Below are positions 5,942 through 34,522 of a stretch of DNA of 64,000 nt, in pieces (within the stretch, counting starts at the first letter, position 1; every line of letters begins with the position of its first letter). Position numbers and translations under genes: made by a program. The DNA comes from Kiritimatiellia bacterium (GTDB taxonomy: Bacteria; Verrucomicrobiota; Kiritimatiellia; UBA8416; JADHWI01): positions 1 through 64,000 of the forward strand of contig JASLPY010000004.1 in NCBI GenBank assembly GCA_030744755.1, read 5' to 3'. The notes below the pieces were generated by a model. It had not been told where the DNA came from and did no database searches. It saw nothing but the letters and a program-made list of their open reading frames with translations.

Positions 5942-6057
5942 GGGAACATTTCGCTTATACTGACGGCCTTTTGCAAGAAATTTCGGATCATTCTCTGGTT
6001 GACGTTGCCCGGAACCCGTCAAGCCGGAAGGAATGAAAGAACGGAGGGAACGGAACG

Positions 6058-6591: not shown

Positions 6592-6792
6592 TCCGCGAGG
6601 ACATCATGACGCAGGCATCTTGTCTGATTTATGATCAGCCGGGACGGCCGATCTACTGGGAGTAGAGCTGGCCTCCGGCCTGCTTTCCAGATACCACGAA
6701 CACCATTTAGTGCCAGATGGCCTTGCTGAGAAGTGGGCCATACGTTAGTCTACTCGCTCTGATGCACGGAATCTTTAGGAAAGGAAGGTAGT

Positions 6793-8630: not shown

Positions 8631-11237
8631 CTATTCCTTGCTGCCCTGCTTGAACTGGGCGAGGTATTTTTCGCGCGCTTCCACCACCCATCGCTCGGCG
8701 CCGCCCATTGCCCAGGTCGGTTCCCAGCCGTTGATATTCTCGTTGTTCTTGCGCTGGATGCAGGCCTTTACCAGGTCAGCCATCTTCTTGTACTTCGGAT
8801 CGTTCCTGTCCTTGTAGCCCTTGATCTGTCCCCAGCCGCCGGCTTTCTCCGGCAGGGGCATCATCAGGATTCTGCTTTCGTCCGTTTGGACGAGGTTCAC
8901 GAGGGCATATTCCGGCTGAGCGGCTACTTCCTCACCGAACAGCTCCTTGACGTAAGCTCTCAGCGCGGTGAGACCAGCGCCATTGAAGCGCCGTTCTTCA
9001 AGTTTGTTCGGGAACATGTCGCCGTAGCACTGACCGTTCAGATCGAGCCACTCTATGATCCGCATATAGCTTTCACGGTCGACCTCGGAGAGCTTAGGAT
9101 GGTTCTTGTCGCCGTTCAGCAGCAGATGCGCAACCTTGTTCTCATAGGCATAGAACTTGCGCGGCCGGCTTATGTTGTAATTGACATCCGTTCCTTTGTA
9201 CCTGCCGTTCATGTACCCCTTGTCGCCTACCCTGTGCTGCCCTCTCTTGACGATCTCGGACAGTGACTTCGGGTAGCGGCCGTTATCATATATCAGGTTT
9301 ATGCTCTTACCCTTCTCATCCTTGCCCAGCCCATGGCATTCAACACAGTACCTGTCCAGCACGGGCTGGACCGTCCTGACAAAACTCATGCCACCTTTGT
9401 ACTGGGGACCGGCAGCGGGTCTCAGGTCCATGGGCTTTTTTCTGCGAAGCTTGGCTACGGACCGCATGTCGGGCGTCGTCCCCACGGCTTCATGACACCC
9501 GATGCAGCTTCTCTGCTCTCCGGGCTGGAGATAGAACAGGCTCTTCTCGGTCAGTAACGCCATGCCGTTTTCATCAAGGGACTGAACCTGTACAGAAACG
9601 TTGGCCGGAATCCTGAAGGTTGCCGAACCGTTCTCGTCCACGGGAACCGTGCCAAGCACTTTCTTCGGTATGTCGTTCGGCACCGTCATCGTGACCGACA
9701 TACGGCTAGCACGAGGCTGGACGCCAAGCGCGTTAATGCGGATCGCCTTGATCATACCGGGCTTGATGATGCCCTCGGGATCGTTGCGGGTCAGGTAGGC
9801 GTTCTGGAGAAACACCGTGCCGTAAGGTTCGGCCTTGGGCGGTATCATTGCGGGGAGAGCCGGGGGGGTCGGCCTGACCCTGATGGGAATAGGCGATACG
9901 GTTGCCACCTCCGGGTCTTCATAGATCTTCTCGCGTCCGCCGAAGGAGTCGATCATGTAGATCGCTCTATCCGCCACTGGAGGCGTCTGGCCCTGCTTGT
10001 GAACTCTGTGATTGGCTCTCGATGCGAGGAATATGTCTTCCGTGAGTGGAAACGGGTGACTGTAATGCGGTTCGGGCCAGCCCTTTGTTTCGGAATATGG
10101 CGTCTCAGGCGTGATGTGCTTGATGGCATGCTCGCCGTTTTCGTCGATATTAGTATCCAGCACCACGGTCGTTCCCGTGTTGTAACTGTGATGGCCCTGT
10201 GCAGTGCACACTACCTTGTGGCTGCCGGGGATGGCCGTTGCTTCAACAAACTGGTGGGGAATGACCATATCGTTGCCGAAGAAATGCGTGACTGCCGTTC
10301 CGTCGGGACGACACCACCACAACTTGTGAAAATACATCTCGTGCCTGTTGGTGTATTCCCAGCGCATAAAAACAATTCTACCGTCGTTCAGAACGGCTGG
10401 TTCGGCCTCGTTCTCGTTGCCGAAAGACAACTGCGTGATGTTGTTTCCGTCCTTGTCGCATTTGTGGAGTATCCATGCAGGATTATACCTGCCGCCGTGG
10501 CAGCGTCCGAACGACTGTCCGCGTGAAGAGATGAAGACGATCTCACCACTTGGCAGGTAACAGGGATCGTTGTCCTCGATCAATACTGTTGCACGACCGT
10601 CCCATGTCTTAAAGTCATCGCGCTTGGTTCCCGTCAACTGACGAACCCACGAACCATCGATCGCTGCTTCGTAAAGGAAATATCGACGCAGTTTCGCGTC
10701 TTTCTCGGTATGATCGCAAAAGGCAAACACCACCCTTTTTCCATCATAGCTCAAGTCGGGATTGCGCACGGCACCAGGAGGCAGCTTGCCTTCCAGGATG
10801 TTACTCACCTCCGGTTCGCCGTTCTTCCATCCGGTCAAAATCCCCATGCCCTTGCCTATGCGGCTGTGACGCCCCAGGTGCTGATCCCCGTTGTGGCTGT
10901 ATTTGGTCGGAGGATTGCGGTTTATGAGTATGCTGTCGAAATTGACACTGGGGTGCCTGGTGAGAACAGCAAGGCGCAGCTTCTTCATGTCGGCGTAAAC
11001 GGCGGCACAGTTGTTAGGGTCGTCAGGCGACGCGTTCAACTTATCGGTAAGCTTGTCCAGCATTTCCAGTGCACGGGCAACCGATGGGGTCGCCTTGCTG
11101 ACGTAATCAATCGCATCGTTAAGACCCTTGGCGTATTCAGCCACTTTATTCTTGTCAACCGGCTTGGAATCAGCGGCAACTAATGCAGTCGCTGACAACG
11201 CAAAAACAAGTAGGATTGAGAGTGCTTTCATAGACAT
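8631..11237 (-). CDS. HzsA-like di-heme propeller protein (1)
   Basis: An 868-residue exported protein. After the signal peptide (MSMKALSILLVFALSATALV) comes a helical region, then a TolB-like propeller with blades such as NPDLSYDGKRVVFAF and EPAVLNDGRIVFMRW. Then come the mid domain named after the hydrazine synthase alpha subunit and two c-type haem sites, CIGCH at 578-582 and CVECH at 631-635. In anammox bacteria HzsA belongs to hydrazine synthase, but no partner subunits occur here. Relatives are widespread in PVC bacteria and probably do periplasmic electron transfer or polymer oxidation. ATG 11237 is chosen because AAAGGTAAT precedes it; upstream residues look non-coding. Confidence 0.8.
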   Translation of the reverse strand: MSMKALSILLVFALSATALVAADSKPVDKNKVAEYAKGLNDAIDYVSKATPSVARALEMLDKLTDKLNASPDDPNNCAAVYADMKKLRLAVLTRHPSVNFDSILINRNPPTKYSHNGDQHLGRHSRIGKGMGILTGWKNGEPEVSNILEGKLPPGAVRNPDLSYDGKRVVFAFCDHTEKDAKLRRYFLYEAAIDGSWVRQLTGTKRDDFKTWDGRATVLIEDNDPCYLPSGEIVFISSRGQSFGRCHGGRYNPAWILHKCDKDGNNITQLSFGNENEAEPAVLNDGRIVFMRWEYTNRHEMYFHKLWWCRPDGTAVTHFFGNDMVIPHQFVEATAIPGSHKVVCTAQGHHSYNTGTTVVLDTNIDENGEHAIKHITPETPYSETKGWPEPHYSHPFPLTEDIFLASRANHRVHKQGQTPPVADRAIYMIDSFGGREKIYEDPEVATVSPIPIRVRPTPPALPAMIPPKAEPYGTVFLQNAYLTRNDPEGIIKPGMIKAIRINALGVQPRASRMSVTMTVPNDIPKKVLGTVPVDENGSATFRIPANVSVQVQSLDENGMALLTEKSLFYLQPGEQRSCIGCHEAVGTTPDMRSVAKLRRKKPMDLRPAAGPQYKGGMSFVRTVQPVLDRYCVECHGLGKDEKGKSINLIYDNGRYPKSLSEIVKRGQHRVGDKGYMNGRYKGTDVNYNISRPRKFYAYENKVAHLLLNGDKNHPKLSEVDRESYMRIIEWLDLNGQCYGDMFPNKLEERRFNGAGLTALRAYVKELFGEEVAAQPEYALVNLVQTDESRILMMPLPEKAGGWGQIKGYKDRNDPKYKKMADLVKACIQRKNNENINGWEPTWAMGGAERWVVEAREKYLAQFKQGSKE

Positions 11238-19498: not shown

Positions 19499-22400
19499 TT
19501 GAGGTCCGTGTGCGTCCATAAACTGCTTGTTGCCTTAACTGTTTGTGTTCTGCTTGTCAGTTCGATGGTCGCCGGCGCCCAGGAGAAGCTTGATAAGGCT
19601 TCCGAGAAGTTCTACAGCGGCAACGCGCTTTACAACAAACGCCTGTATTCTCTTGCTATAAAAGAATACCTCGCCTATCTCCAGGAGTTCCCCAAGCATT
19701 CCAAGGTTGAACAGGCACGTCTCGGGGTTGCGTTGTGTCTTTACGCTCAGAAGAAATGGCCGGAAGCGGAAAAAGAAATAACGAATGTACTGCAGCGCCG
19801 CAAGGCCGGTGACCCGGATAAACTGGGCCTGATGCTTGCCCAATGCATGATCAATCTGAAGCGTCCAGCCGATGCCCGCAAGGCCTTCGCCCCTGTGACC
19901 CGGTCCAAGAATGCCGAGTTCAGAACCACGGCCATGGCCGCTATCACCGAGTCATGGTTCAAGGAGCAGAACTGGGAAGAGGTGGCAAAATCTTCCGCCG
20001 TTCTACTGAAAGCAAATCCGGCCGATAAGCTCAAACTGCGGGGCCTTTACCAGGGATCCTACGCTCAATTCCAGCTTGGGGCCTATGCCGAGGCTATTCC
20101 GTTGCTGCTCGAGCTGGTGCCGCTGGCCAAGGGCGGGGCGTATGAATCGCAGTGCGCTTTCATTCTTGCGGAGTGCTATCGTGAGACCGGCGATCTTGCC
20201 AAGGCCACGGAGGCCTACGAGGCCGCGGGCACCGGACTCACGGGTGAGACGGCTGCGGAAGTCGCTTATCGGTTGGGACTAGTGAACTTCCAGAAGGCGA
20301 ATTACGATGACGCAGTGAAGGGGCTTGAGAAGTCCATCAAGCTCAGTCCGGACGGGGAGTTTTCCGATCCGTCCCGCCTGCTTCTCGGTCGCGCCTATCT
20401 TGAAAAACAGGACTACAGGAAGGCCGAGCAGCATCTGCGGTCATTGAGCCAGCGCTCTGATGAGGAGCGAAAGAAAAAGAAGAAGAAACTCAGGGAGGGG
20501 CTGGTCTTTTCGGATGCGCGTGCCGCTTTCTGGTATGCACGGGTCTTCTCGCGTCAGAAAAAGTATGCCCAAGCGGAGCAGGTTCTCGCCGTGGCTGTCA
20601 AACAGTTTGCGCGTGATCCGCTGTCCATGGACCTGCAGTATGACTATGTGAACGCCCTGATGGTCAATGAGAAATACAAAGAGGCAGCGGGCGTTCTGGG
20701 TAGCATATTCCGTTATAAACACGACAAGGACTATGCCCAGCGTTCGGACCTCCTGCGGTTCTATGCCGAATGCCTGCACCGCAACAAGGACTACGCCAAC
20801 AGCCTGAAGTACGCCGACGAGTATCTTGCCGCTTACGGCAAAGAGAAACATGTGGGCGATATCAAGTTTCTTAAGGCAGAGAATCTGAATCTCATGGCAA
20901 AGATTGACGAGGCACTTCCCGTTTACGAGGAAGTCTTTTCCAAGTACAAAGATAACAAGAATGTAGAGACTGCCCGTTTCCGGGCTGCCCAGATTCATCG
21001 TCGCAAGGGTGACTCCGCAAAGGTGAGCGGACTGATGGTGGAATTGCAGACGAAAGCGCCGGAGGGAGCGGTATTCAGCCAGGTAAAATTCGTTGCGGGT
21101 GACGCGGCTTTCCGCCAGAGAAAATGGGCCGAAGCAGTTGTCCACCTGAACGCCTTCGTCGATCAGCACATGAAAGACCGACGCAGGCCCTCTGCAGAAC
21201 CGAACCTGGATGCCGCGTTTGTCCAGATGGCCGTCAGCAGCCTTAACCTTCAGAAGGTCGACGATGCCGCAGGCTATTTTGAGCAGGTGATAAAACTGTT
21301 TCCCGAAAGCCCGCACCGCCCGCTGGCACTCGCCGAGCTCGGGCGAATCCAATATGAAAAGGGCGACCACAGCAAAGCAAAGTCAACGCTCTCGCATTAC
21401 GTACAGTCCAAGCTCAAGAAGACGACCCTTAACGCCCAGGTGGACTACTACCTCGGCTGGATAGCCATGCAGGAAAAACGCTTGCCCGAAGCGGAGAAGC
21501 ATTTTCACACGGTCGTACATCAGCATCGTGCGCACGAGCTGGCTCCGGATGCCGCCATTCAGCTTGGACGCGCGTGTCTGGAGCAGGAGAAGTACAGGGA
21601 GGCGGCAGCAGCATACAGCGACCTGATAAAGAACTGGCCGGCGCACCCGCGTATGGACCTGGCCGTGTTTTCCCTGGGTATATCCTATGCCCGAAGGAAA
21701 GACTGGAGGAACGCGGCCACTCATTTTGCAGCGGTCGACGAAAAGCACTCAAAGTCTGAAGTCGCCGACCGTGCCCTGTACGAACTGGCATGGTGTGCGA
21801 AGGGCGTGAAGAAGAACGACGAGGCGGTTCTGCACTATAAGAAATTGATAGAAAAACATCCCGGGAGCAGCCTGGTTGAGAAGGTCCGCACCGAGCTGGC
21901 GGAACTGACGTTTGCCAAGGCCGACTATGACGCCGTGATTGCAGAGCTCAAGGATACGCTTGATAAGCTGACGGACCCGAAGCTGAAAGAGGAAACGACG
22001 TACCGACTGGGTACAGCCTATTTCAACAAGGCGGATTACGAAAATGCCGCGAATACGTTCGAGGCTTTCATTGCCCAGTACGAGAAGTCACCCAAGCTGG
22101 CCTCTGTGTGTTTTCACGCCGGTGAGGCACGCATGAGGCTGAAGGAGACTGTCAAGGCGCGGGACCATTTTACCGAGGCCCACAAGCGTAACCAGCAGGT
22201 GGAAATGCGCGAATCGATCCAGCTGCGCCTGGCCGAAACCCAAAGGCTGACACGCAAGTACAAGGACTCCATGAATACCTACAGGGATTTCATCCAGAAA
22301 TTCCCGGAAAGCAAATGGCTGGCACAGGCACATTTTGACCACGGCTGGTGCATCGAGAAGCAGAAGGACTATAACCGCGCCTCCGTGGAATACCGCAAGG

Positions 22401-22702
22401 TCATTGCCATGGGTAAACGGGATGAACTGGCTGCCCGCAGTCAATTCCAGCTGGGCGAATGTCTTTTTGCTATGAAGAAGTATGACGATGCTATCCAGGA
22501 ACTGATAAAGGTGACCGTTGCCTACTCTCATAAGAAATGGCAGGCTAGGGCGGCATTGGAAATCGGACGCGCACTAGAAGCCTTGGGCGAGAAAGATAAG
22601 GCGCTGGAGCAGTTCAAAGAAGTCATGAAGAAATATCCCAAGGAACAGACCATTGTTGATTCGGCCCGCAGGCATGTGAGTATTCTGCGTCACGGCAAGT
22701 AG
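19499..22702 (+). CDS. Large exported TPR scaffold protein of the ExbB/ExbD operon
   Basis: A 1067-residue protein with a signal peptide (HKLLVALTVCVLLVSSMVAG, then AQ) followed by TPR or Sel1-like helical repeats along its whole length, roughly 25 units, such as ALYNKRLYSLAIKEYLAYL, AAYRLGLVNFQKANYDDA-like and QFQLGECLFAMKKYDDAIQE. It resembles periplasmic YbgF/CpoB-type TPR proteins that work with Tol-Pal systems, but is far longer. TTG 19499 is chosen because GGGAGAGG lies about 7 nt upstream and it begins the signal peptide; GTG 19493 is an alternative. First gene of a five-gene operon; it probably scaffolds the complex in the periplasm. Confidence 0.8.
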   Translation: MRSVCVHKLLVALTVCVLLVSSMVAGAQEKLDKASEKFYSGNALYNKRLYSLAIKEYLAYLQEFPKHSKVEQARLGVALCLYAQKKWPEAEKEITNVLQRRKAGDPDKLGLMLAQCMINLKRPADARKAFAPVTRSKNAEFRTTAMAAITESWFKEQNWEEVAKSSAVLLKANPADKLKLRGLYQGSYAQFQLGAYAEAIPLLLELVPLAKGGAYESQCAFILAECYRETGDLAKATEAYEAAGTGLTGETAAEVAYRLGLVNFQKANYDDAVKGLEKSIKLSPDGEFSDPSRLLLGRAYLEKQDYRKAEQHLRSLSQRSDEERKKKKKKLREGLVFSDARAAFWYARVFSRQKKYAQAEQVLAVAVKQFARDPLSMDLQYDYVNALMVNEKYKEAAGVLGSIFRYKHDKDYAQRSDLLRFYAECLHRNKDYANSLKYADEYLAAYGKEKHVGDIKFLKAENLNLMAKIDEALPVYEEVFSKYKDNKNVETARFRAAQIHRRKGDSAKVSGLMVELQTKAPEGAVFSQVKFVAGDAAFRQRKWAEAVVHLNAFVDQHMKDRRRPSAEPNLDAAFVQMAVSSLNLQKVDDAAGYFEQVIKLFPESPHRPLALAELGRIQYEKGDHSKAKSTLSHYVQSKLKKTTLNAQVDYYLGWIAMQEKRLPEAEKHFHTVVHQHRAHELAPDAAIQLGRACLEQEKYREAAAAYSDLIKNWPAHPRMDLAVFSLGISYARRKDWRNAATHFAAVDEKHSKSEVADRALYELAWCAKGVKKNDEAVLHYKKLIEKHPGSSLVEKVRTELAELTFAKADYDAVIAELKDTLDKLTDPKLKEETTYRLGTAYFNKADYENAANTFEAFIAQYEKSPKLASVCFHAGEARMRLKETVKARDHFTEAHKRNQQVEMRESIQLRLAETQRLTRKYKDSMNTYRDFIQKFPESKWLAQAHFDHGWCIEKQKDYNRASVEYRKVIAMGKRDELAARSQFQLGECLFAMKKYDDAIQELIKVTVAYSHKKWQARAALEIGRALEALGEKDKALEQFKEVMKKYPKEQTIVDSARRHVSILRHGK

Positions 22703-22750
22703 GTGGGCTGTTGCCGGATAATTGTAATTAGAAAGAAGGGGAGAAAAAGA

Positions 22751-23491
22751 ATGAGAAGCAACTTGAGGTACAAGCTGGGGACGCTGCATTGTTTTGTAAT
22801 GGGCATTATGGCCTGCGGCAACGCATGGGCAGCGCCGGTTACCGGTCCCGCGGTCGGCGAAGAAACGATGTTCGATCTGCTTTGGAAGGGCGGCCCCGTT
22901 ATGATTCCCCTGGGGCTGGGCTCCGTGCTCGCGGTAGCGATCATGATCGAACGCTTTATATCGCTGCGCCGCGAGCGTGTGATCCCCCCGGATTTCATCG
23001 ATACACTCGCTTCCACAAGAAAGGGCGATACTTCCGCGGCCAAAGCCATTGCTTTCTGTGAGGAAACGGGCGGGGCGGTTGGCAAGATCTTCAAGGCCGG
23101 CCTGCAGCGCCTGGGCAAAGGCGAAGAGGCGGTGGAAAAGGCAATCGAGGACGCCGGCTACCGCGAGGCAGACAAGTTAAAACGATCGCTGCGCGGACTT
23201 TCGATTATCGCAACGGTATCGCCGCTGCTGGGCCTGCTGGGAACGGTGTACGGTATGATTGAGGCTTTCCAGACGGCATCTTCTATCGGCATGGGCAAGT
23301 CTGACGTTCTTGCAAAAGGCATTTACGAAGCGCTGGTCACTACCGCAACGGGTTTGACGATCGCTATTCCGGTACTGCTGGTCTACCAGTTCTTGTCCGG
23401 AAAAGTAGACGGCATTGTTGACGATCTTGACGAGATGGGAATGGACTTCATGCTCAGTTGCGCTGATGAAGCCGAAGCGGCAGGGAGCTGA
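22751..23491 (+). CDS. exbB: MotA/TolQ/ExbB-family proton channel subunit
   Basis: A 246-residue protein with three membrane segments. MIPLGLGSVLAVAIMIERFI is the first helix with its E-R pair, and VSPLLGLLGTVYGMIEAFQT is the family signature in the second. The third helix follows ALVTTATGLTIAIPVLLVYQ. A signal-peptide-like N terminus (residues 1-28, ending AWAA) precedes the first helix, as in many PVC ExbB proteins. It forms a pentameric proton-motive-force motor with ExbD. AAGGGGAG is 8 nt before ATG 22751. ExbD starts 1 base after the stop. Confidence 0.93.
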   Translation: MRSNLRYKLGTLHCFVMGIMACGNAWAAPVTGPAVGEETMFDLLWKGGPVMIPLGLGSVLAVAIMIERFISLRRERVIPPDFIDTLASTRKGDTSAAKAIAFCEETGGAVGKIFKAGLQRLGKGEEAVEKAIEDAGYREADKLKRSLRGLSIIATVSPLLGLLGTVYGMIEAFQTASSIGMGKSDVLAKGIYEALVTTATGLTIAIPVLLVYQFLSGKVDGIVDDLDEMGMDFMLSCADEAEAAGS

Positions 23492-23492
23492 T

Positions 23493-23906
23493 ATGAGAAT
23501 TCGTCGCCAGAACACAGATAGCGAAGAAATCATCAACATGTCTTCGCTTCTGGATGTAATGTTCATTCTGATCATCTTCTTCCTGGCCACGACCACGTTC
23601 AAGGAACAGGAGGTCGATGAGGCGGTCAATCTCCCTGTCCAGGCCAAGGGAGAAGCGTTGTCGGCAGACAACCAGCTTATCGTAATCAACGTGCGCAAAA
23701 GTGGCACCTACGTGCTCATGGATCAGCAGGTCACCGTCGAGGAGATGGATGGGATGATACGTGAGGCCCTCACAGAGAACCCGGAGATGAAGGTTCTTGT
23801 TCGCGCCGATCAGGAGGCCCTGCACGGATGGGTTGCCCAGGCGATTGCCATCTGTCGCAACGCAGGGGTGCTGAAGGCCAATATCGGCTATAAACTGCTT
23901 AACTGA
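23493..23906 (+). CDS. exbD: ExbD/TolR-family motor subunit
   Basis: A 137-residue protein with one N-terminal membrane helix (INMSSLLDVMFILIIFFLAT). Asp21 is the conserved residue that carries protons in ExbD/TolR. The periplasmic domain (about 50-137) has the usual strands, for example LIVINVRKSGTYVLMDQQV and MKVLVRADQEALHGWV. Only one ExbD is present, whereas many planctomycete operons have two. GGGAG precedes ATG 23493. It is followed after 8 bases by the first toroid protein, so all are one transcript. Confidence 0.93.
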   Translation: MRIRRQNTDSEEIINMSSLLDVMFILIIFFLATTTFKEQEVDEAVNLPVQAKGEALSADNQLIVINVRKSGTYVLMDQQVTVEEMDGMIREALTENPEMKVLVRADQEALHGWVAQAIAICRNAGVLKANIGYKLLN

Positions 23907-23914
23907 GAACGACC

Positions 23915-26323
23915 ATGTCAGATAAAGACATACGGACGGAAGAGAATAAGGCGATGCCTGATCCTGAGACCAAGGCAGAGGCCCCGGTCCCCGCGCCGCC
24001 CAGTTTCTGGAAGCGCCACAAGAAGAGAATCATCATCATCTCTTCTTCTATCCTCGTAACCGCCATCCTGGCCTGGCTCTACCTGTATCTTCAGCCGACT
24101 ACGTGGCATTACTACACGGACGAGACCACGTTCAAGCAGCTGGCCAAGGACGTGGAGCCCCGCTTCGTCGCCTGGGAGAATGCAGAACCCGTTAAGGGAG
24201 CAATGGCAGTTTCTACCGATGTGCACGATTCGGCCATCTCTCCCGATGGTGTCCACCTGGTGTACACCGCCGGTGAAAGCAACGGGAATGCAGACCTGTT
24301 CATCTCCCGATGGGAAGATTCCGGATGGGGCGAGAGCGAGCCGATGCGCGCCCTGAACAGTGGCTTTAACGAGAAGGCGCCTGTCTTTACCAGCGACGGC
24401 AAGTTTCTGTATTTCACCACCGACCGGCCTGGCGGGCCTGGCGGGTTCGACATATGGGTGTCGCGGTTTGACGGGGCTAACTTTGCGTGGCCCGTGCCGC
24501 TGACGAAAATGGTCAACTCAGCGTTTGACGATATCGACCCTGCGGTTACGCCGGAGCACGATAAGCTGTACTTTTCATCAAAGCGTCCCGCACGTGAACT
24601 TGATGCGGAAGAATCGAAGATGGCGTCTATTGAGCTGCGCGAGCGTTTCAGCGACCTGGATTATGATGTTTATGTCGCCGATCGCATTCCTGCAGGCGTG
24701 ACGAATCGCGAAGTCGAACGCGCGATGAGTATGCTGTATTACCTGAGGGAGTCCGCGCTGAGCGAGACGAACACAATGGCGATTCTCGGAGGTACCCGTG
24801 AAACCGAGGCGGCCGTTGACAAGGCGCTTGAATGGTTGGCAGCCAACCAGGATACAAACGGTTTCTGGGACATCCAGAAACACGGTGGCCAGGGCGGTCA
24901 CAATGTGGCCTCATCGGGATTCGCCTTGCTGGCTTTCCTGGGGCGAGGGGAAACGCACAAGAAGGAATGCAAGTACCGGGACGTCGTCAAGCGGGGCCTC
25001 GAATGGATGATTACCCAACAGGATCCATTTGGCCGCCTTAAAGGCAACGGGTATGACCATGGTATTGGATCGCTAGCCCTGGCAGAGGCCTACGGCGTGA
25101 CCAAGGACCAGGACTGGATATACGGTCCGGCCCAGTCCGCGGTGGATTCCATTGTTGATACCCAGCACCTTGAAGGTGGCGGCTGGCGGTACAAACCGGG
25201 AGAGAAAGGTGACCTATCGGTATCGGGCTGGATGATCATGGCTTTGAAGAGCGCCGAATTGTCAGGGATTACGGTTCCCCGCCTGACCTATGATGGTGTT
25301 CGCAAATGGCTTGACTCCGTGTCTGGCGGCAAACGGGGCGGTATGTACTCATACCAGCCGAGCGGGGGGAGTTCGGGCAACGCCATGATTGCTACGGGAT
25401 ACTTCTGTAGCCAGCTGATGGGGCTTTCGCCAAATACATGGAGAAGTTTCGAGACATCCACCCATCTGAACAAGGCAGGTGTTGCTTCTGCTGACCTCTA
25501 CTATGCCTACTACGGCACGCTCTCAGCCTACCAGGGCCAGGGCCCCGTTTGGGATGAATGGAGGAAGCAATTACACGAAATCTTTCTGAAGCAGCAACAG
25601 GCGGATGGCTCATGGCCTCCACAGGGCGGGGACAGCCATGGTCGAAACATGGGGACCGTAATCACCACGGCATTGGTAACCTTGTCCCTGCAAGCCCATT
25701 ACCGCTATACGCCGCTCTACGGGCTGGGATTCAAACCCGAGCCGGGAACCGAGCGCCTGTCGAAACAGAACCTGGACGATTTGCCGGAAGTTCCGCTGTA
25801 TCGCCGGGCCAAGCAGAAGCCCGACTTCAGTTCTCCCAAGGACGACGTGCAGCTGTCGCTGACTTCTCACGGCGATTTTCTGTACCTGGCATCCGACCGG
25901 GATGGCGGTCTCGGAGGCTTCGATATATACCGTCACCGCATTACCGGAGTTGAGCCTGGTGAAGCCCAGCAACTCGGCCCGGAGATCAACAGCGAGGCGG
26001 ACGAAACAGCGCCTGCGACTCGTATGGCAGGCTTCAACCTCACCTTCAGTTCAAACCGCGGCGAGGGCGAATCCGGCAAGTACCGGCTGCACAGTGCCAT
26101 GAGCCGCCAGGTATATCGGCGTCACAGCTTCTCGGGAATACCACCACCATCCTACATCTGGGAGACGTTCCAGAAGCGGCTGATGTTCCTTGTTGTCGGC
26201 ATCCTCTTTCTGATCTGGTTCACGCGAATTGCCATGCGTCCCGCCAAGGCGGGAAAGCCGCCAACGGAGCCGGCCGATAATGCCGTCCAGGACGCCTCAA
26301 CGGAGGGTGATTCAAATGTCTGA
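23915..26323 (+). CDS. Membrane protein: PD40 propeller interrupted by prenyltransferase-like alpha/alpha toroid (1)
   Basis: An 802-residue protein. Membrane helices lie at about 38-60 and 756-776, with a large extracytoplasmic body between. PD40/WD40-like blades (AISPDGVHLVYTAG, PVFTSDGKFLYFTTDR, AVTPEHDKLYFSSKR) cover about 100-240. A prenyltransferase/squalene-oxidase-repeat toroid (about 285-605) follows, with GGGWRYKPG and DGSWPPQGG turns. The blades then resume (FLYLASDRDGGLGGFDIY). I see no DxDD, so squalene-hopene cyclase chemistry is unlikely. It may bind peptidoglycan, lipid or protein. The next gene overlaps its last 8 bases. Confidence 0.8.
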   Translation: MSDKDIRTEENKAMPDPETKAEAPVPAPPSFWKRHKKRIIIISSSILVTAILAWLYLYLQPTTWHYYTDETTFKQLAKDVEPRFVAWENAEPVKGAMAVSTDVHDSAISPDGVHLVYTAGESNGNADLFISRWEDSGWGESEPMRALNSGFNEKAPVFTSDGKFLYFTTDRPGGPGGFDIWVSRFDGANFAWPVPLTKMVNSAFDDIDPAVTPEHDKLYFSSKRPARELDAEESKMASIELRERFSDLDYDVYVADRIPAGVTNREVERAMSMLYYLRESALSETNTMAILGGTRETEAAVDKALEWLAANQDTNGFWDIQKHGGQGGHNVASSGFALLAFLGRGETHKKECKYRDVVKRGLEWMITQQDPFGRLKGNGYDHGIGSLALAEAYGVTKDQDWIYGPAQSAVDSIVDTQHLEGGGWRYKPGEKGDLSVSGWMIMALKSAELSGITVPRLTYDGVRKWLDSVSGGKRGGMYSYQPSGGSSGNAMIATGYFCSQLMGLSPNTWRSFETSTHLNKAGVASADLYYAYYGTLSAYQGQGPVWDEWRKQLHEIFLKQQQADGSWPPQGGDSHGRNMGTVITTALVTLSLQAHYRYTPLYGLGFKPEPGTERLSKQNLDDLPEVPLYRRAKQKPDFSSPKDDVQLSLTSHGDFLYLASDRDGGLGGFDIYRHRITGVEPGEAQQLGPEINSEADETAPATRMAGFNLTFSSNRGEGESGKYRLHSAMSRQVYRRHSFSGIPPPSYIWETFQKRLMFLVVGILFLIWFTRIAMRPAKAGKPPTEPADNAVQDASTEGDSNV

Positions 26324-29300
26324 TGCCAATCGTACATCTGAACGTCTTCCCACGGCCGAAAACGGGACTCAACCAGCTTCGGCTACACCGAAGAAGGCGT
26401 TGCGCGGTAATCGCTGGCGCTGGCTGCTGGTGATTCTGCCTGCGCTGGTGGTACTGGGGCTGATGCTCAACATCTTCTTCCAGCTAAAAAACACGGTCTG
26501 GAGCTACTATACCGACGACGCGGACATCAACTTCGCCTATGGTGAGCGAGAGCTGCGCATGGCGCTGTGGGAAGACCCGTACCTGACGCCGGCCACGTTC
26601 AATACGAACACTATACCCACGGAAACCGCTTTCTCGCCGGACGGGGCAACGATGGTTGCAACGAGGGCCGATGCGGAGAGCGGCGAGCTCAACCTCTTCC
26701 TCAGCACATGGGACGGTTCCAGCTGGAGTACCGGGACGCTCATGCAGGCTATCTGCAGTTCCGATGCGACGGATACCGATCCATCGTGGTCGGAAGACGG
26801 ACGCACATTGTATTTCGCATCCGATCGCGAAGGTGGTTTGGGCGGGTTTGACATCTGGGCCACGCAGAGGAAAGAAGGAGAGTGGGGCCCGGTCACCAAC
26901 CTGGGTTCGGCTGTTAATTCCAAGGCAGATGACTACGAGCCTGCCATTTCCCCGGATGACGCCAGGTTATACCTGACTTCAGATCGCAGCGGTGATCTGC
27001 GCGTATACGCGGCTGTCAAGAAGCAGGTACCTGAGACCACTAACGCCGTGCCGCTTGAATTCGCGGCAGCAGAAGCCTTTGCCACACTGAATTCCGTAGA
27101 GGCAGGTTCCCAGGTTACCTGGTCTCCTTCCGGAGACAGGGTTTACACGGTTTCAGACAAGGAGGGTGGTCAAGGCGGTTACGACATCTACTCCACTCGC
27201 GTGCTTAAAGGGGAGTTCGTCGATACAAAGAATGCCGGGCTCGAGTTCAACACTCCTGCTGATGAGCTTTCGCCGTCCGTGCGCTGGCAGGGCTTCGACA
27301 TGGTGTTCAGTTCGACTCGTCGAGCCTATACAGAAGAGATCGATCAAGAAGACCCGGAAAGCATGCTGTACTCCACAACCTCCCGCGAGGTCGTGAGCGC
27401 CCTGGACCTGTCCCGCTGGGAACGCCTGATGAACCTGCTTGACCGAATCAAGTGGTGGCTACTGGGACTGTTGCTGGCGCTGATAATTCTGATATGGCTG
27501 CTCTTGCATTGGCGCAATCTGTCGGGCCTGTTCCAGAAATGTCTCCTGGCTTCTGTGATCTTCCATGTGATTCTGCTCGTGATATTCTTCTTCACACAAA
27601 TAATGATCGAGATCAGCGAATCCAGGGATCCCGAATCCACGGAAGTCTCCATGAACATTGACAACCTGGCCAAGGAGAAGCTGGCCCTGGACATGGCAGA
27701 GCAGGTGACCGAATTACCAGAGGCCCCGGTAACTGTTCCCCTTGAGCAGATTGTTGAAGCGGTGCCGATACCGAAATTCACTCCGAAAACAACACCGGTC
27801 ACCGAACCAATAGTGACAAAAACCACGGATGAATCGTTCGTTGTAAAGGTTACTCCTTCCGTTGCGCAGGAGAAGGTTGTTGACGTGGCTGCCGCCAAGG
27901 CTTTCGAGGTACTTCCCGAACTGGATATGCCGGAGCTGGAGGTCGAGCTTACCGAGTTTGTGCCGCAAGACACACTGGATGAAGCAGATGTTCAGAAGAC
28001 ATTTGAGCCCACCGTGGTTCAGCAGGAAGTCCAGGTCAAGAAGCGTGAACACAAGAAACCGCAGATGACAGCGGTGACCAGAACCGCCGACGTGTCGGAC
28101 GTTGACAGCGATGCAAAGGACAACGCTGCGGCTGCCACCATCAAGGACACCGGGGGAGACGTTATCGTGGCATCAGCCGGCATGGAAGCGCCTGGGTCGC
28201 TTCCCAAGCTGACGGGCACGGGCGATCTGATTGGATTGATGATCAAGTCTCCCGGCACCGGCTCGGAGCTCAAAATCAATGCACCAGGCAAGCTGGACGT
28301 GCCTTCGTCGATCGGCGCAACCATATCCCCCGACATCCTCAAGAATCCTGGCAAGCTTTCCCTGGAAACGATCGAGGGACTGGGTGGTAACGCGGCCACG
28401 CAGGGAGCCATCGCGCGTGCACTGGACTGGTTTACGAAACACCAGGAATCGGACGGCCGCTGGGATGTCAAGAAGCACGGCGGTGTGCAGCAGCACGATA
28501 TCGCCGGAACCTCGCTGGCGTTGCTCTGCTATTACGGCTGGGGAGCCAAGCACAACGAAGCTGGACCTTACCAGGCTACCGTCAAACGGGCTATCGATTG
28601 GCTGGTGGCTCAGCAGAAAGAAAATGGCAGCTTTATGGGTGCGGCCAACAACGGCATGTACGATCACGGTATGGCCACAATCGCTATCTGCGAAGCCTTC
28701 GGCGTGACAAAGGATCCGGTACTCAAAGAGCCCGCTGCTAAAGCAGTTGCATTTCTTGAGAAGGCCCAGGATGCCAAGGCCGGAGGTTGGCGCTACAGTC
28801 CGAACAGCGGCAGTGACACTTCTGTGTTCGGTTGGCAGTACATGGGGCTGAAGAGTGCCGAACTGGCAGGGATAGACGTGTCGCCGCTGGTTCTTGCGAA
28901 TGCAGATAAGTGGCTTGATAAAGTTGGCGGAGGAAAACAGGGTGGTCTGTATGGTTACCAGAACCCCGGCGGCAATCAGAAAGCCATGATTCCCACGGGC
29001 ATGTTCTGCCGGCAGTTGGCAAAGGTACCTCCTGCAGATCCACGCATGAAAGAAGGCGCTGACTTCATGAGAATGCGCCCGATAGCGAACAAGAACATCG
29101 ATTATTACTATCTCTACTACGGAACACTCGCGTTGTACCAGCACCAGGGCAAAGTCTGGGAAGACTGGAACACGCGCATGAAAGAGATCCTTCCCGAGAT
29201 CCAGGAAAAGACCGGTGCTGATGCCGGAAGCTGGGCCCCCGGCGGCGCCAACCATGGTAACTCGATGGGCAAAGTGGTAACAACCGGAATAGCAACACTC

Positions 29301-29363
29301 TCGCTCGAGGTCTACTACCGGATTCTCCCGATCTACGGCTTCCGAGACGCCGAGGAAGAATAG
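26316..29363 (+). CDS. TonB-like membrane protein with PD40 propeller and C-terminal prenyltransferase-like toroid (2)
   Basis: A 1015-residue protein. Helix 1 is at about 36-56, a PD40 propeller at about 100-350 (YFASDREGGLGGFDIW, LYLTSDRSGD) and helix 2 at about 380-398. Helix 3, about 408-430, contains SVIFH (Ser413, His417), the Ser-x3-His spacing of the TonB transmembrane helix. A Pro/Val/Thr-rich linker of about 230 residues follows (VPIPKFTPKTTPVTEPIVT), then a toroid (about 690-1010) paralogous to that of the preceding protein (WDVKKHGG against WDIQKHGG). TonB's own C-terminal domain is absent. With ExbB and ExbD in the same operon, it is probably the energised output subunit. GGAGGG precedes ATG 26316. 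Confidence 0.8.
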   Translation: MSDANRTSERLPTAENGTQPASATPKKALRGNRWRWLLVILPALVVLGLMLNIFFQLKNTVWSYYTDDADINFAYGERELRMALWEDPYLTPATFNTNTIPTETAFSPDGATMVATRADAESGELNLFLSTWDGSSWSTGTLMQAICSSDATDTDPSWSEDGRTLYFASDREGGLGGFDIWATQRKEGEWGPVTNLGSAVNSKADDYEPAISPDDARLYLTSDRSGDLRVYAAVKKQVPETTNAVPLEFAAAEAFATLNSVEAGSQVTWSPSGDRVYTVSDKEGGQGGYDIYSTRVLKGEFVDTKNAGLEFNTPADELSPSVRWQGFDMVFSSTRRAYTEEIDQEDPESMLYSTTSREVVSALDLSRWERLMNLLDRIKWWLLGLLLALIILIWLLLHWRNLSGLFQKCLLASVIFHVILLVIFFFTQIMIEISESRDPESTEVSMNIDNLAKEKLALDMAEQVTELPEAPVTVPLEQIVEAVPIPKFTPKTTPVTEPIVTKTTDESFVVKVTPSVAQEKVVDVAAAKAFEVLPELDMPELEVELTEFVPQDTLDEADVQKTFEPTVVQQEVQVKKREHKKPQMTAVTRTADVSDVDSDAKDNAAAATIKDTGGDVIVASAGMEAPGSLPKLTGTGDLIGLMIKSPGTGSELKINAPGKLDVPSSIGATISPDILKNPGKLSLETIEGLGGNAATQGAIARALDWFTKHQESDGRWDVKKHGGVQQHDIAGTSLALLCYYGWGAKHNEAGPYQATVKRAIDWLVAQQKENGSFMGAANNGMYDHGMATIAICEAFGVTKDPVLKEPAAKAVAFLEKAQDAKAGGWRYSPNSGSDTSVFGWQYMGLKSAELAGIDVSPLVLANADKWLDKVGGGKQGGLYGYQNPGGNQKAMIPTGMFCRQLAKVPPADPRMKEGADFMRMRPIANKNIDYYYLYYGTLALYQHQGKVWEDWNTRMKEILPEIQEKTGADAGSWAPGGANHGNSMGKVVTTGIATLSLEVYYRILPIYGFRDAEEE

Positions 29364-29392: not shown

Positions 29393-29441
29393 CTTCTGCG
29401 CTACCACGAGCCGGCGGTCTTGCAGTGTGCTTGGGAAGGGA

Positions 29442-29492
29442 CCTCTCGGAGATAGGGCCCTACTTCTCCAGTACATGCCTATCTCCGAGAGG
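29442..29492. repeat. Perfect 13-bp inverted repeat upstream of the patatin gene
   Basis: CCTCTCGGAGATA (29442-29454) and its exact complement TATCTCCGAGAGG (29480-29492) are separated by 25 bases. The position, 70 bases before the patatin start, would fit an operator or a leader hairpin. I see no second copy in the window. Confidence 0.5.
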
Positions 29493-29562
29493 CATGATTC
29501 CAGGTGGATCTCCATTGGCAAGCTGCCCACCGGATATCCTTGCGTTTTCTAAGAAGAAATCT

Positions 29563-31029
29563 ATGATTCTTCCATCCATGCGTAATCTGCACAGATTGAT
29601 CGTCTCAAGTGCCTGCCTGCTGCTCCTCACGGGATGTGCATCATACCGCAACAAGAACCTGGACCACCGCCTCCAGGTTTTTGAATCACCGGAGCTGCGA
29701 TTGAAAGGCGTCAAGAACGTACAATCGCGCGAGGGGCAGAACCCCGACATTGCCCTGGCACTCGCAATCTCCGGTGGGGGACACCGTGCCGCAAATTTCG
29801 CTACAGGCATACTGCTGGGTATGGAGTCCACGCCTCTTCCCGGGTCCGGCCGCGACATGCTGCAAGAAGTTGACTACTTCTCAACTGTTTCCGGCGGTGG
29901 ATTCGCCTCGGGAGCATATCTCGCTGCCCTGCATGACCACATAAAGAGTAACAGCTCTGAGGACTTCAGCTTGCGCGAAGCACTTCTCGCGAACAAGGAA
30001 CGGGGGCTCTACAACCTTCGACGTGATTACCAGACAAGCATGCTTGTCCAGTGGATCCATCCTTCCTGTTTCGGGTACCGGGATGCCGGCAATCTCATGG
30101 AAAGACGTTTCGATCACTATCTTCTCGGGTCCAAGTACCGCTCCGATGGGAGCAGCCTGCTCTTGGGCGATATCTTCAAGCGGGCCAGTTCGCCCGATCC
30201 GGTACGCCTCCCGTACTGGATAGCCAACGCCACCGTATACGAGAACGGTGCCCGTTTCATGTTCGCTCCTGAATTCATCGCGCATTACCGAATCGACCGC
30301 TATACGCACAAGATGCGGTATCACAACTTGAAGGGAGATCCCCTGTCATTGCCTGCCGCTGTGGGGATGAAAGCCAGCGCGTCGTTTCCCGTTCTCTTTC
30401 CCGCCACAACGTTTACCTGCACCCCGGAGGAGGATAAACTCAACCCATACCTGCATCTCATTGACGGTGGAATGACTGACAACACCGGAGTGAAGACGGC
30501 GCTTGAGCTACTTCGAAACGATGCTGCCCCACGCAAGATACTTTTGGTCATTGATGCATATGCAAAGAATGCTCATCCGTACTCGTCATACAGGACATCG
30601 CCGGACGGTGCCGGTGTTGCATTCAGGATCATGAAGATAGGCCTCGACGCAGAGCACCTGCGTTTGCGGAAAGAGGTGTCGCGGCAAGCTTCCGAGAATA
30701 GTATTGAAGTTCGCTTCCTGGGATTTGATCAACTGAAACCGGTTTTGCAGGAGAGCATCTCAGACTTGAAAACGGAGATCGCCGCGATGCGCAAAGAGCG
30801 CACCGAGGCACTCAGTCGACGCCTGCGCAGAGAGATGGACTGGGCACTCCGCAAGAAACGGCTCGAACTCGAAACTGTTGAATCAGAATCAGAGAATCTC
30901 TACGAAGATGCCCGAAACGTGGCCACCACCTTGAGCATCACAAAAGCGGAGCAGTCAGTCCTCCTGAAAACGGGACAGGCGGTTATCAACAGAAACAAGT
31001 CGGACCTGACCGACCTCCTGAAACCGTAA
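29563..31029 (+). CDS. Patatin-like phospholipase lipoprotein
   Basis: A 488-residue lipoprotein: the lipobox LTGC (Cys25) ends the signal peptide. SGGGHRAANFATGIL at about 70-84 is the patatin oxyanion loop, TVSGG with Ser110 the nucleophile elbow (first Gly of GxSxG replaced by Thr), and DGGMTDNTG with Asp301 the dyad partner. It should hydrolyse acyl esters at the cell envelope. The C-terminal 130 residues are helical and charged (AAMRKERTEALSRRLRREMD), possibly coiled coil. ATG 29563 has AAGAAG upstream; 29578 is an alternative. It is 200 bases downstream of the toroid operon on the same strand, so a link is possible but unproven. Confidence 0.85.
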   Translation: MILPSMRNLHRLIVSSACLLLLTGCASYRNKNLDHRLQVFESPELRLKGVKNVQSREGQNPDIALALAISGGGHRAANFATGILLGMESTPLPGSGRDMLQEVDYFSTVSGGGFASGAYLAALHDHIKSNSSEDFSLREALLANKERGLYNLRRDYQTSMLVQWIHPSCFGYRDAGNLMERRFDHYLLGSKYRSDGSSLLLGDIFKRASSPDPVRLPYWIANATVYENGARFMFAPEFIAHYRIDRYTHKMRYHNLKGDPLSLPAAVGMKASASFPVLFPATTFTCTPEEDKLNPYLHLIDGGMTDNTGVKTALELLRNDAAPRKILLVIDAYAKNAHPYSSYRTSPDGAGVAFRIMKIGLDAEHLRLRKEVSRQASENSIEVRFLGFDQLKPVLQESISDLKTEIAAMRKERTEALSRRLRREMDWALRKKRLELETVESESENLYEDARNVATTLSITKAEQSVLLKTGQAVINRNKSDLTDLLKP

Positions 31030-31060: not shown

Positions 31061-34000
31061 CTACTTGCTGGCCACCTTCACGTCTTCGTCCTCACAGACG
31101 ACACGGAATCCGACGTCCCACACCGGTTGCCAGCACTGGTAGCTGAGGCGATACGTATCAATACGATCGCCCGGGACCTTGAGCCCCTTGGCACCGCGAA
31201 CGACCTTGCGGCCGTTCTTCTCGCCCTCATCGCGGCCATCAGTCGACCTGTACGGGTATGGCTGATACGTGCTCCGGGTCCACTCGGCTCCGCCTTGAGG
31301 AACTCCGGCACCCCATGCGCCTGATCCAGCTTTATCAGCCGTGGCACCGGCACGGGCTGCATATTCCCACTGCGCCTCGGTAGGCAGCGAGAACTTCTTG
31401 CCTGTCTTCTCGCTGAGCCATTCGCAAAAGGCCATCGCGCGTTCCCACGAGATACGGATCACACGCTGTTCGGGCTTGTTCAGCGGATTTCCACGGTTAC
31501 TGTGGTCCTTTCCGCCGCGATCGAGATATCCGCTGTCGTGCTCAGCATCGAACAAGGCATACTCACTGTTCAAGACCACACTCTTGGCAATCCAGAACGG
31601 CTTGTCGATTTTCACGGCACAGGGCGGCTGTTCGTCGGCTGCCCCGGCAGCATCACCCATCACGAATTCGCCGGCAGGAATGCGAACCATGTCCAGGTCG
31701 AGTTTCCCGCCACCCACATCAATGGTGACTTTCTGCGCGCTGTCCGCTCCCTGGCGCTTTTTCGCCTCGGCATCATCGAAGGGCCAGCCGGCAGCATTGA
31801 CCGCAACAGCCTTCACAGGTTCGGGCGCTGGAGGAATAATCGGCTCGATCTTCTTCTTTCCCATTTCCGGTATGAGTTCGTAGTCCTCGTCTACACCTGC
31901 GTACAGCTTGCGCATTTCAGCACGACGCTCATGCTGCCCGCTGGGAATAGCACGGAATTCCCCCCATGTCCCATAGTACGGGACGTTAAGGTCAATCCAC
32001 GTGTAGAGGCGTTCATAGGTCTCGCGGTCAGGCTTAACGCCATGATGCCCTTTCTTGAGCATCTGGATAAGCGGACTCGTGTCAGCGTCATATTCAGTGG
32101 GCGGATACATATGATAATCGCCCTCCGGGCCGGGTCTGCGCACGTGCGCCTGCAATACTGTGTAGGCGGGGCTGAAGCCCTTACCGCCGCTATCACGCAA
32201 GTCGGCCCGCTTGCGCCCCTTCTTGTCGGGCTGACCGTCGTGACAACCCACGCAGTACTTATCCAGGGCCGGTTGCACTTCGCGCCTGAAACTGAATCCG
32301 CGCGCTGGGCCATACCAGGGTTGAATCTGTTGCGGCTTCTGTTTTGACGCCATCACTCGGCGGGGCGGGGGTGCGTCTTTATTGCTCTCGTGGCAGCCAA
32401 CGCAGGAGAGATTCTCACCCGGCATGGCAACGAGCCAGCTCCGCATGAGCTGGAGCGCCTTGCCCTCCTCGTCCAATGGTTGCAGGGCAATCGGGGTGTT
32501 CGCTGGAATATGGAAGGATGATGATCCGTCCGGCTCGACATCAACCGTACCCAGGATGCGATGCACATCCCACGGGCCCTCTTTGCCGATGTAAGTGTGA
32601 TTGGCCAGCTTGTGATAGCCATAGTCAAACGCAAATATCCGCATCTTTTTGATCGTACCGCGCGGGACATTCTTCAGCCCGCCGCCCGTATAGATGTCTG
32701 ACAGATGCAGCACTGCATCCTTGCGAGCGAGGTCAACTCGCTCGGGGATAACCGGAGGGCGTTTTGTTTTGCGGAACGGAACCGGCTCCAGCATAGCAAT
32801 GCCCGGTTCCACGAGGATTGGCAGCATGTTGTCGAATACGTCGACGAGGTAGATTCCCCAGTTGCCGCCGCCGTTGCATGAAGTGAGGAAATATTTCGAA
32901 CTGAGCGGGTAGGGGTGAAGAAAGCGTGGCGTGGATCCGTTGACCAGTCTGTCAGCGATGACGGGTTCCACCTTCTTTCCGTAGCCGGGGATCCTCTGCA
33001 CCACGCCGTCAGCTTCGTGCTGGCCCTTTGCCGGGTCAAAAAGGATCAGTTCACCCTCTCGTGCCACACCGTGGTGACCGGAGATGATACCCGTGAACTG
33101 GGACGGATGATTCGGAACTGCCCGTACGTAGAACGTCGAGTTCGGCCAGTATGAATTACTGCCGTAGTAGGAACGCTGGTTCGTGCCGTCAGGATTCATG
33201 ACCATGACTAAGCGTGTAAAATAATGGGGCGAGTCGCTATATTCCCAGCGTGTGAAGATAACGCGGCCGTCGTTCAGTACAGAAGGGTACCAGTCGTGGT
33301 CCTGGTCAAAACAGAGCCGCCGAATACCGGTGCCGTCAGGATTCATGACGTAGAGATTGGCAACCTGGCTGCCGCCACCAACACATGGGACTCCTTGGAA
33401 GATCGATGTCGAGTCATAGATAATCTTCTCGCTGGGCAAGTAGCAGGCATCGTAGTTGTCAACGCCATCAATTGTCTTCGACACCTGGCGCAAACCCGTG
33501 CCGTCGGCATTGAGCTCGAAGACCTCGTAGCGTTTATTCGGCAACTGGGAAGAAAGCAACATTCTGTCCGCATCCCAGTGGAGGTCAACGTCGCCGACGA
33601 AGATTCCCGATTCGGGCTTATAGAGCGTGGTCAGTTTCCCTTCAGGGCTCACAGGCGAGAGCACGGCGATTTCGTTGTTGAAGGGTCCGCGCTTCGAGCA
33701 ATTGCCCACCCAGTTCTGCGGCATGCCCGGATTGCCGTGCCGCTTGACGAGCAGAAGCTTGTCAAAATCCAGGAGGGGATTAGCCAGTAACGCTTCTTTC
33801 GTCAGCGCACTGAGAGCTTCAGCATCGGGCTTGGCCTCAATCTCCTTCAGTCTGGCCAGGTACTCCTTGCCCTTGGGATAGCGAGGTCCGAAGTCACTGA
33901 TCAAGTCCTCGATCGCCCTGCGCAACGATTCCGGAGTGCTTACCTGTACGGGTGGCGCAGGCGTTGCTGATTTCTTGCCGCGAGAAGGTCTTTTCGCTGT

Positions 34001-34522
34001 GACCTTGGCTATAGGCTTTCCGGGCAATTTGGACTGGGAATAGTCCTTGATCGCCAAGGTCGTGGCCCCCTTGCCAGGCTTCAGCGTGCTCGAACTCCAA
34101 ACCGCCTTGCGCTTGGCATCCAGGATCATCACGAGGCAGCCATGTAGGCGGGCCTCATGTCCATCACGATTCCATATGACTATCTTGTCGATTGAAACAG
34201 CGCCCTTACCCAGGTCCACTTCCCATGCTGGAGTATTCGCTCCTTGAGCAGAGTGCGTTATCGAGTTTTTCGAATAGTTGCCGTCTGTATTGCCGTCAAC
34301 TGCGCGGCCGGAAACTCCGCCGGCCGATGTGCTCGATTGCGTAGTCTTACGGTTGCGCGCCACATTTTTGCCGCCACTGAAGACTTCTACCTCGGCCAGG
34401 GATAGCGTCTTGCCCTTGCCTGGTATGGATATGTTCACATATTTGCCCATAACCGCTTCCGCGGCCAGCGTGTTGAAACAGCAGGCTGTGAGAACAATGA
34501 CAGATACGATTCCTCTTAACAT
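31061..34522 (-). CDS. HzsA-like di-heme protein (2) with F5/8-like N terminus and fused FGE/SUMF1-like domain
   Basis: An 1153-residue exported protein with four parts. (1) A discoidin/F5-8 type C-like carbohydrate-binding domain at about 27-160 (GKTLSLAEVEVFSGGKNVA, AWEVDLGKGAVSIDKIVIWN). (2) A TolB-like propeller. (3) The HzsA mid domain with haem sites CVGCH at 707-711 and 757-761. (4) A formylglycine-generating-enzyme-like domain at about 930-1145 (RIPAGEFVMGD, WERAMAFCEWLSE, LPTEAQWEYAARAG). The FGE-like fold is often a binding domain rather than an oxidase. The whole suggests a periplasmic redox enzyme with glycan-binding ends. It faces the patatin gene tail to tail, 31 bases apart. 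Confidence 0.82.
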   Translation of the reverse strand: MLRGIVSVIVLTACCFNTLAAEAVMGKYVNISIPGKGKTLSLAEVEVFSGGKNVARNRKTTQSSTSAGGVSGRAVDGNTDGNYSKNSITHSAQGANTPAWEVDLGKGAVSIDKIVIWNRDGHEARLHGCLVMILDAKRKAVWSSSTLKPGKGATTLAIKDYSQSKLPGKPIAKVTAKRPSRGKKSATPAPPVQVSTPESLRRAIEDLISDFGPRYPKGKEYLARLKEIEAKPDAEALSALTKEALLANPLLDFDKLLLVKRHGNPGMPQNWVGNCSKRGPFNNEIAVLSPVSPEGKLTTLYKPESGIFVGDVDLHWDADRMLLSSQLPNKRYEVFELNADGTGLRQVSKTIDGVDNYDACYLPSEKIIYDSTSIFQGVPCVGGGSQVANLYVMNPDGTGIRRLCFDQDHDWYPSVLNDGRVIFTRWEYSDSPHYFTRLVMVMNPDGTNQRSYYGSNSYWPNSTFYVRAVPNHPSQFTGIISGHHGVAREGELILFDPAKGQHEADGVVQRIPGYGKKVEPVIADRLVNGSTPRFLHPYPLSSKYFLTSCNGGGNWGIYLVDVFDNMLPILVEPGIAMLEPVPFRKTKRPPVIPERVDLARKDAVLHLSDIYTGGGLKNVPRGTIKKMRIFAFDYGYHKLANHTYIGKEGPWDVHRILGTVDVEPDGSSSFHIPANTPIALQPLDEEGKALQLMRSWLVAMPGENLSCVGCHESNKDAPPPRRVMASKQKPQQIQPWYGPARGFSFRREVQPALDKYCVGCHDGQPDKKGRKRADLRDSGGKGFSPAYTVLQAHVRRPGPEGDYHMYPPTEYDADTSPLIQMLKKGHHGVKPDRETYERLYTWIDLNVPYYGTWGEFRAIPSGQHERRAEMRKLYAGVDEDYELIPEMGKKKIEPIIPPAPEPVKAVAVNAAGWPFDDAEAKKRQGADSAQKVTIDVGGGKLDLDMVRIPAGEFVMGDAAGAADEQPPCAVKIDKPFWIAKSVVLNSEYALFDAEHDSGYLDRGGKDHSNRGNPLNKPEQRVIRISWERAMAFCEWLSEKTGKKFSLPTEAQWEYAARAGATADKAGSGAWGAGVPQGGAEWTRSTYQPYPYRSTDGRDEGEKNGRKVVRGAKGLKVPGDRIDTYRLSYQCWQPVWDVGFRVVCEDEDVKVASK

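Follow-up and report, generated by a model that had tools for sequence, protein, structure and literature searches.

We analyzed a stretch of 64,000 nucleotides from a Kiritimatiellia bacterium (positions 1 to 64,000 of contig JASLPY010000004.1, assembly GCA_030744755.1; "the window") and focused on five co-directional open reading frames (ORFs) at 19499–29363 on the forward strand. They encode a large exported TPR protein, the motor subunits ExbB and ExbD, and two membrane proteins with toroid domains, here named TorA and TorB (Table 1). The assembly of the source genome (G000) spans 6.28 Mb, has a completeness of 89.7% and contains six exbB-type loci. Neighboring genes are separated by exactly 48, 1, 8 and −8 bases. 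Pfam gave many TPR matches in the first protein, MotA_ExbB (3e-31) in ExbB, the ExbD domain (4e-23) in ExbD and PD40 in both toroid proteins (8e-20 and 7e-19), and SQHop_cyclase_C was weak in TorA (0.0018) and over the cut-off in TorB (2.5e-7). The ORFs and the Pfam matches thus agree with a first-pass annotation of this DNA, which had claimed the same genes, spacing and PD40/toroid content, and Asp21 of ExbD is present as claimed. To our knowledge, the well-understood outputs of ExbB/ExbD-family motors are of the TonB and TolA types only. The genes described here make up a self-contained ExbB/ExbD cassette; its output is very probably a toroid protein and not an ordinary TonB.

Table 1. Genes and features of the toroid cassette (positions in the window)
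Feature	Position	Strand	Remarks
Large exported TPR protein	19499..22702	+	1067 aa; TTG start; signal-peptide-like N-terminus; CpoB/YbgF- and BamD-like repeats
ExbB/TolQ motor subunit	22751..23491	+	246 aa
ExbD/TolR motor subunit	23493..23906	+	137 aa; Asp21
TorA	23915..26323	+	802 aa; transmembrane helix (TM), ~4 propeller blades, toroid, ~2 blades, TM; no SxxxH anchor
TorA toroid, read as inserted in the propeller	24767..25720	+	aa 285–602
TorB, proposed force transducer	26316..29363	+	1015 aa
TorB PD40 (TolB-like) propeller	26541..27410	+	TM1–TM2 interval; Pfam/NCBIfam, hydropathy
TorB TM2	27447..27503	+	hairpin with TM3
TorB TM3, TonB-type anchor	27540..27596	+	Ser413 and His417 (27552–27566)
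D-box-like strand VSMNID	27645..27662	+	His+27 to +32; alignment to E. coli TonB
TorB Pro/Val/Glu-rich linker	27663..28361	+	~230 aa; from sequence
TorB C-terminal (alpha/alpha)6 toroid	28362..29345	+	Pfam, AlphaFold2 (AF2), Foldseek, PDB sequences

A hydropathy scan placed three membrane helices in TorB, at residues 37–55, 378–396 and 409–427. The third one, missed in the first-pass annotation, starts LLASVIFHVILLV and holds a TonB-type Ser-x3-His motif, in which Ser413 and His417 have the same spacing as Ser16 and His20 of TonB. In the cryo-electron microscopy structure from Escherichia coli, these two TonB residues touch Ser34 and Trp38 of ExbB (PMC12215075). Because the TM2–TM3 loop of TorB is positively charged, it is probably cytoplasmic, so that TM3 would have the orientation of the TonB helix, with its start on the cytoplasmic and its end on the periplasmic side. 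Moreover, TonB binds ExbD via the strand after its membrane helix, the D-box (PMC10907165). In a gap-free alignment, Val47 and Met49 of E. coli TonB correspond to His+27 and His+29, and the strand V444-S-M-N-I-D of TorB lies in the same register. In most TorB relatives, every second residue from His+27 to His+31 is hydrophobic (74–77% of 35 rows at each of +27, +29 and +31). By this pattern match VSMNID is D-box-like, and its binding to ExbD is putative.

The anchor is well conserved, with motifs detected by simple patterns and hydropathy. Relatives carry it as HKCLAGSAxxHLLxLL or similar; its Ser and His are invariant in 15 close relatives, where the invariant positions of the anchor block are W13, L38, C42, S46 and H50. 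In the window and in nearly all cassette-linked toroid transducers, Ser-x3-His is located in the final helix preceding the linker. As a background, the motif lies near the helix start in only 7 of 691 membrane helices from other proteins of the same loci.

The tip of TorB is a toroid and not a vWA domain, according to Pfam and AF2. The AF2 model of this toroid, made with nine sequences, has a predicted local distance difference test score (pLDDT) of 84 and a predicted TM-score (pTM) of 0.88; the alignments used for AF2 were shallow. Foldseek matched it with AprG, squalene-hopene-cyclase-like proteins, terpene cyclases, epimerases, GH76 hydrolases and the complement thioester-containing domain, and the nearest solved proteins by sequence are squalene-hopene cyclases (1.6e-12, PDB sequences). 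About 50 toroid columns are invariant. These likenesses and invariant columns would suit an active enzyme or a domain handling glycans or lipids, which the motor would move or load instead of pulling a protein partner. We regard this as unlikely: the fold matches are generic (alpha/alpha)6 toroids with TM-scores of about 0.5–0.6 and 11–16% identity, and unrelated tips take the place of the toroid in related cassettes. Furthermore, 120 of the 122 toroid domains lack the DxDD acid of class II cyclases (the window's is not one of the two that carry it), and all 122 lack the thioester CxEQ.

The AF2 model of TorA (pLDDT 73, pTM 0.70) shows the toroid between about four blades on the N-terminal side and about two on the C-terminal side, with a helix at each end. 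We take this as a propeller of six blades into which the toroid is inserted, the blades being counted by eye from the strand list. TorA has no SxxxH motif and looks like an accessory protein. In two relatives TorA and TorB are fused as one protein, namely L143 (complete, directly 3' of exbD) and L061/L144.

As for the motor, the window's ExbB has Ser58 as the equivalent of E. coli Ser34, together with the pore threonines and the TM3 proline. The equivalent position is Ser in all 39 ExbBs next to SxxxH toroids, compared with 1 of 10 next to motif-less toroids. An early reading of these counts as strong coevolution between ExbB Ser34 and SxxxH was weakened, as the tree permits only about three independent changes. 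This tree of 74 ExbBs was built by a quick method and has several long branches. The window's ExbB falls inside a set of 16 rows, all toroid-linked, and the ExbBs adjoining ordinary TonBs of the same order are placed elsewhere.

Consistent with the earlier claim that the window has no ordinary TonB or TonB-dependent receptor, no TonB_C or Plug match was found on its contig. In the whole source genome TonB_C had no match at the threshold applied, and Plug had a single match on another contig. Across the order, 24 of 31 genomes have a TonB_C match. Many of these TonBs lie next to their own exbB/exbD, and the ExbBs concerned sit apart in the tree, which argues against a better partner TonB elsewhere for the window's motor. 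TorB itself could act as the TonB of some outer-membrane receptor, for which its TonB-type anchor and D-box-like strand would speak. Such an import system is nevertheless improbable: no receptor-like gene recurs near the cassettes, most relatives have an ordinary TonB, and TorB has no match to the C-terminal domain of TonB or TolA in Pfam or NCBIfam.

The likeness to Tol-Pal was also considered. The cassette's ExbB and ExbD score higher against TolQ/TolR than against ExbB/ExbD models, with no curated cut-off reached (NCBIfam); the TPR protein matches YbgF models; and the nearest solved structure to the TorA propeller is TolB (1c5k, 3.6e-5). With TolQ, TolR, a TolB-like propeller and a CpoB-like TPR protein in one place, the cassette might be a replacement of Tol-Pal. 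However, full-length models found separate TolB (1.9e-93) and Pal (9e-31) genes in the source genome (L228, G000:C508, 8285–10209), with no tolQ/tolR adjacent, and tolQRAB-pal operons are present in relatives. We therefore dropped the replacement, which is very unlikely; the cassette is thus additional to Tol-Pal and would be no more than a paralogue of that system. No TolA tip, TolB N-terminal domain or Pal was found in the cassette. TolB_N matched in only 1 of the 31 genomes, with a model that misses divergent TolBs.

To analyze the distribution of the cassette, we scanned named genomes, obtained 569 relatives and kept the best 79 loci, a sample in which close relatives of the query are over-represented. 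Among these best 79, the relatives belong to Verrucomicrobiota, Kiritimatiellota, Lentisphaerae, Planctomycetota and Sumerlaeota. Ten named relatives share both the order and the strand of all five genes, so the arrangement is not due to chance; L126 has it as well, with the TPR gene cut by the contig end. The complete cassette recurs in Verrucomicrobiota/Kiritimatiellota, and anchored toroid transducers are also present in the other three phyla. Four-gene cassettes without TorA were found in L058, L060 and L222. A TPR homologue lies directly upstream of exbB in relatives, and clustering of the neighboring genes revealed no further conserved partner.

SxxxH toroid genes are usually linked to exbD: where upstream DNA is sufficient, 35 SxxxH toroid genes have exbD upstream and 13 have none. 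In four of the 13 (L131, L136, L140 and L145) the transducer gene directly follows a TPR gene, with no exbB/exbD. L131 and L140 may share the motor of L123/L129, because they are located in the same genomes as those full cassettes. The toroid proteins could also be unrelated membrane proteins that share an operon with the motor, its TonB being elsewhere or missing from the assembly. The incomplete assembly (89.7%) and the many toroid paralogues of the source genome not adjoining exbB would be in line with that, but the motif, the D-box register, an operon conserved across several classes and an ExbB apart from TonB-linked ExbBs make this the least probable of the alternatives.

Further cassettes carry different tips. 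We searched 388 genomes of the phylum for the anchor block, with at most 12 candidates scored per genome, and found it in 15. In eight of these (L216–L221, L223 and L224) the propeller-hairpin-anchor core follows exbB-exbD and has a different C-terminal tip, for which six scanned proteins gave no Pfam match; the anchor Ser is sometimes replaced by Ala. Moreover, the source genome contains a second cassette (L053, C332, 6114–17200), in which TPR-ExbB-ExbD precede a 2306-aa transducer composed of vWA, hairpin, SxxxH, linker and DUF4159. Compared with the window, both cassettes have TPR-ExbB-ExbD, a sensor domain, a helix hairpin, an SxxxH anchor and a linker, whereas L053 has vWA instead of the propeller and DUF4159 instead of the toroid. 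Given this cassette and the alternative tips in relatives, the anchor seems to be a module whose ends can be exchanged.

The window's contig also carries a third motor cassette (L054, G000:C443:90000-107000, 6661–10715), which encodes ExbB, two ExbD, a 145-aa AxxxH-helix protein and a DUF4159 protein. Smaller toroid proteins (about 550 aa) next to exbB-exbD(-exbD) were rejected as members of the same system, since those examined in this order lack SxxxH and have a different type of anchor. An 11395-aa toroid ORF in G007:C70 was discarded, as the stored sequence consists of consecutive N there. In L231, a 538-aa toroid protein (4615–6231) is encoded directly downstream of a tolQRAB-pal operon.

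Taking these results together, we interpret the cassette as a 5:2 ExbB/ExbD proton motor dedicated to TorB, a TonB/TolA-like force transducer, and assign this a probability of about 0.72. The first-pass annotation had regarded both toroid proteins as the output in place of TonB. TorB, which has the docking anchor, is likely the output of the motor, and TorA, which lacks the motif, probably does not share this role. Since the TonB/TolA-type helix is retained, TorB replaces the tip of TonB and not TonB as a whole. In the proposed mechanism, TM3 would pack on the outer face of the ExbB pentamer via Ser413 and His417, a docking suggested by sequence comparison with TonB. VSMNID would be captured just outside the membrane between two ExbD periplasmic domains. 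Proton flow would turn ExbD, and the flexible linker would transmit the resulting pull or twist to the C-terminal toroid; this in turn may bind a partner located in the cell wall or outer membrane. The TolB-like propeller of TorB, TorA and the TPR protein, the last as a presumed scaffold, may together act as a periplasmic hub to position or regulate the transducer. For the job, we tentatively suggest a Tol-like one, with mechanical work done on the outer membrane or wall; nutrient import is less likely than that.

Several observations weigh against the interpretation of TorB as the transducer. The second half of SHLS in the window's TorB is Phe and Gln instead of Leu and Ser, and the full motif is missing in a few cassette toroids (L148, L152 and L153). 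Trp38 of the transducer-contact network is Val/Leu here, with Val in the window's ExbB; Trp is also absent from most TonB-linked ExbBs of the same order. The match between Ser34 and SxxxH is consistent but not independent evidence, because the tree needs only about three changes per trait. The 13 SxxxH toroids without exbD nearby belong here as well.

The principle of such transducers is already known, since Williams-Jones et al. (2025) described SHLS-anchored transducers with vWA tips in Planctomycetes-Verrucomicrobia-Chlamydiae (PVC) bacteria, often downstream of TPR-tolQ-tolR-tolR (PMC12204202). The main text of that paper has no mention of toroids or prenyltransferases. The literature searched, with subscription papers and preprints outside the scope, contains no report of a toroid tip with a fused propeller, and the papers searched for toroids or prenyltransferases with ExbB/ExbD, or DUF4159 with ExbB, held nothing relevant. 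Within this literature, the toroid class with its in-line propeller represents a novel variant of SHLS-anchored transducers; the word "undescribed" in the first-pass annotation can be kept for the toroid tip and not for the principle. Both types share an SHLS-type helix, a motor box (putative in TorB), a linker and a foreign tip, with TPR and tolQ/tolR genes directly upstream (Planctomycetes/Verrucomicrobia). Unlike the vWA transducers, the cassette has a toroid tip, one exbD/tolR instead of a pair, an anchor that is the third helix and follows a TolB-like propeller, and TorA as a second toroid-propeller protein.

With TonB/TolA the cassette shares Ser-x3-His, a D-box-like strand in register, a long linker to a globular tip and an ExbB/ExbD partner, but TorB lacks their C-terminal domain and the Leu and Ser of SHLS, its anchor is internal and not N-terminal, and no receptor or Pal is in the cassette. 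A TolQ/TolR-like motor, a TolB-like propeller and a CpoB-like TPR protein are common to Tol-Pal, whereas here the propeller is tethered to the membrane as part of the transducer, there is no Pal or TolB N-terminal domain, and TolB-Pal is separate in the genome. The (alpha/alpha)6 fold and QW-like motifs are common to the toroids of squalene-hopene cyclases and prenyltransferases; the TorB toroid differs in being a single, membrane-anchored tip without DxDD.

If our interpretation is true, the toroid class with an in-line TolB-like propeller over several PVC lineages means that the docking anchor can be reused with very different tips, and proteins so far recognized only as prenyltransferase/squalene-cyclase-like would gain a function. 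Ser413, His417, the VSMNID strand and Ser58 of ExbB are testable residues. A bolder and rather doubtful idea is that PVC bacteria possess modular proton-driven envelope machines, made of a TonB-type anchor, a TolB-like propeller or vWA, and swappable tips (toroid, DUF4159 and others). The toroid would then be a mechanically driven ligand-binding or catalytic device, using membrane energy for periplasmic glycan or isoprenoid chemistry.

A patatin-like phospholipase gene (29425–31029, +) lies 61 bases 3' of torB on the same strand, and no homologue recurs next to the cassette in relatives. Two other window proteins contain HZS_alpha (hydrazine synthase alpha middle domain): one at 31061–34522 (−), together with CxxCH motifs and an FGE-sulfatase domain, and one at 40727–44488 (+), together with HEAT repeats. 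Finally, a MoxR-type AAA ATPase at 58729–60015 (+) matches the bpMoxR model of MoxR-vWA-beta-propeller ternary systems.

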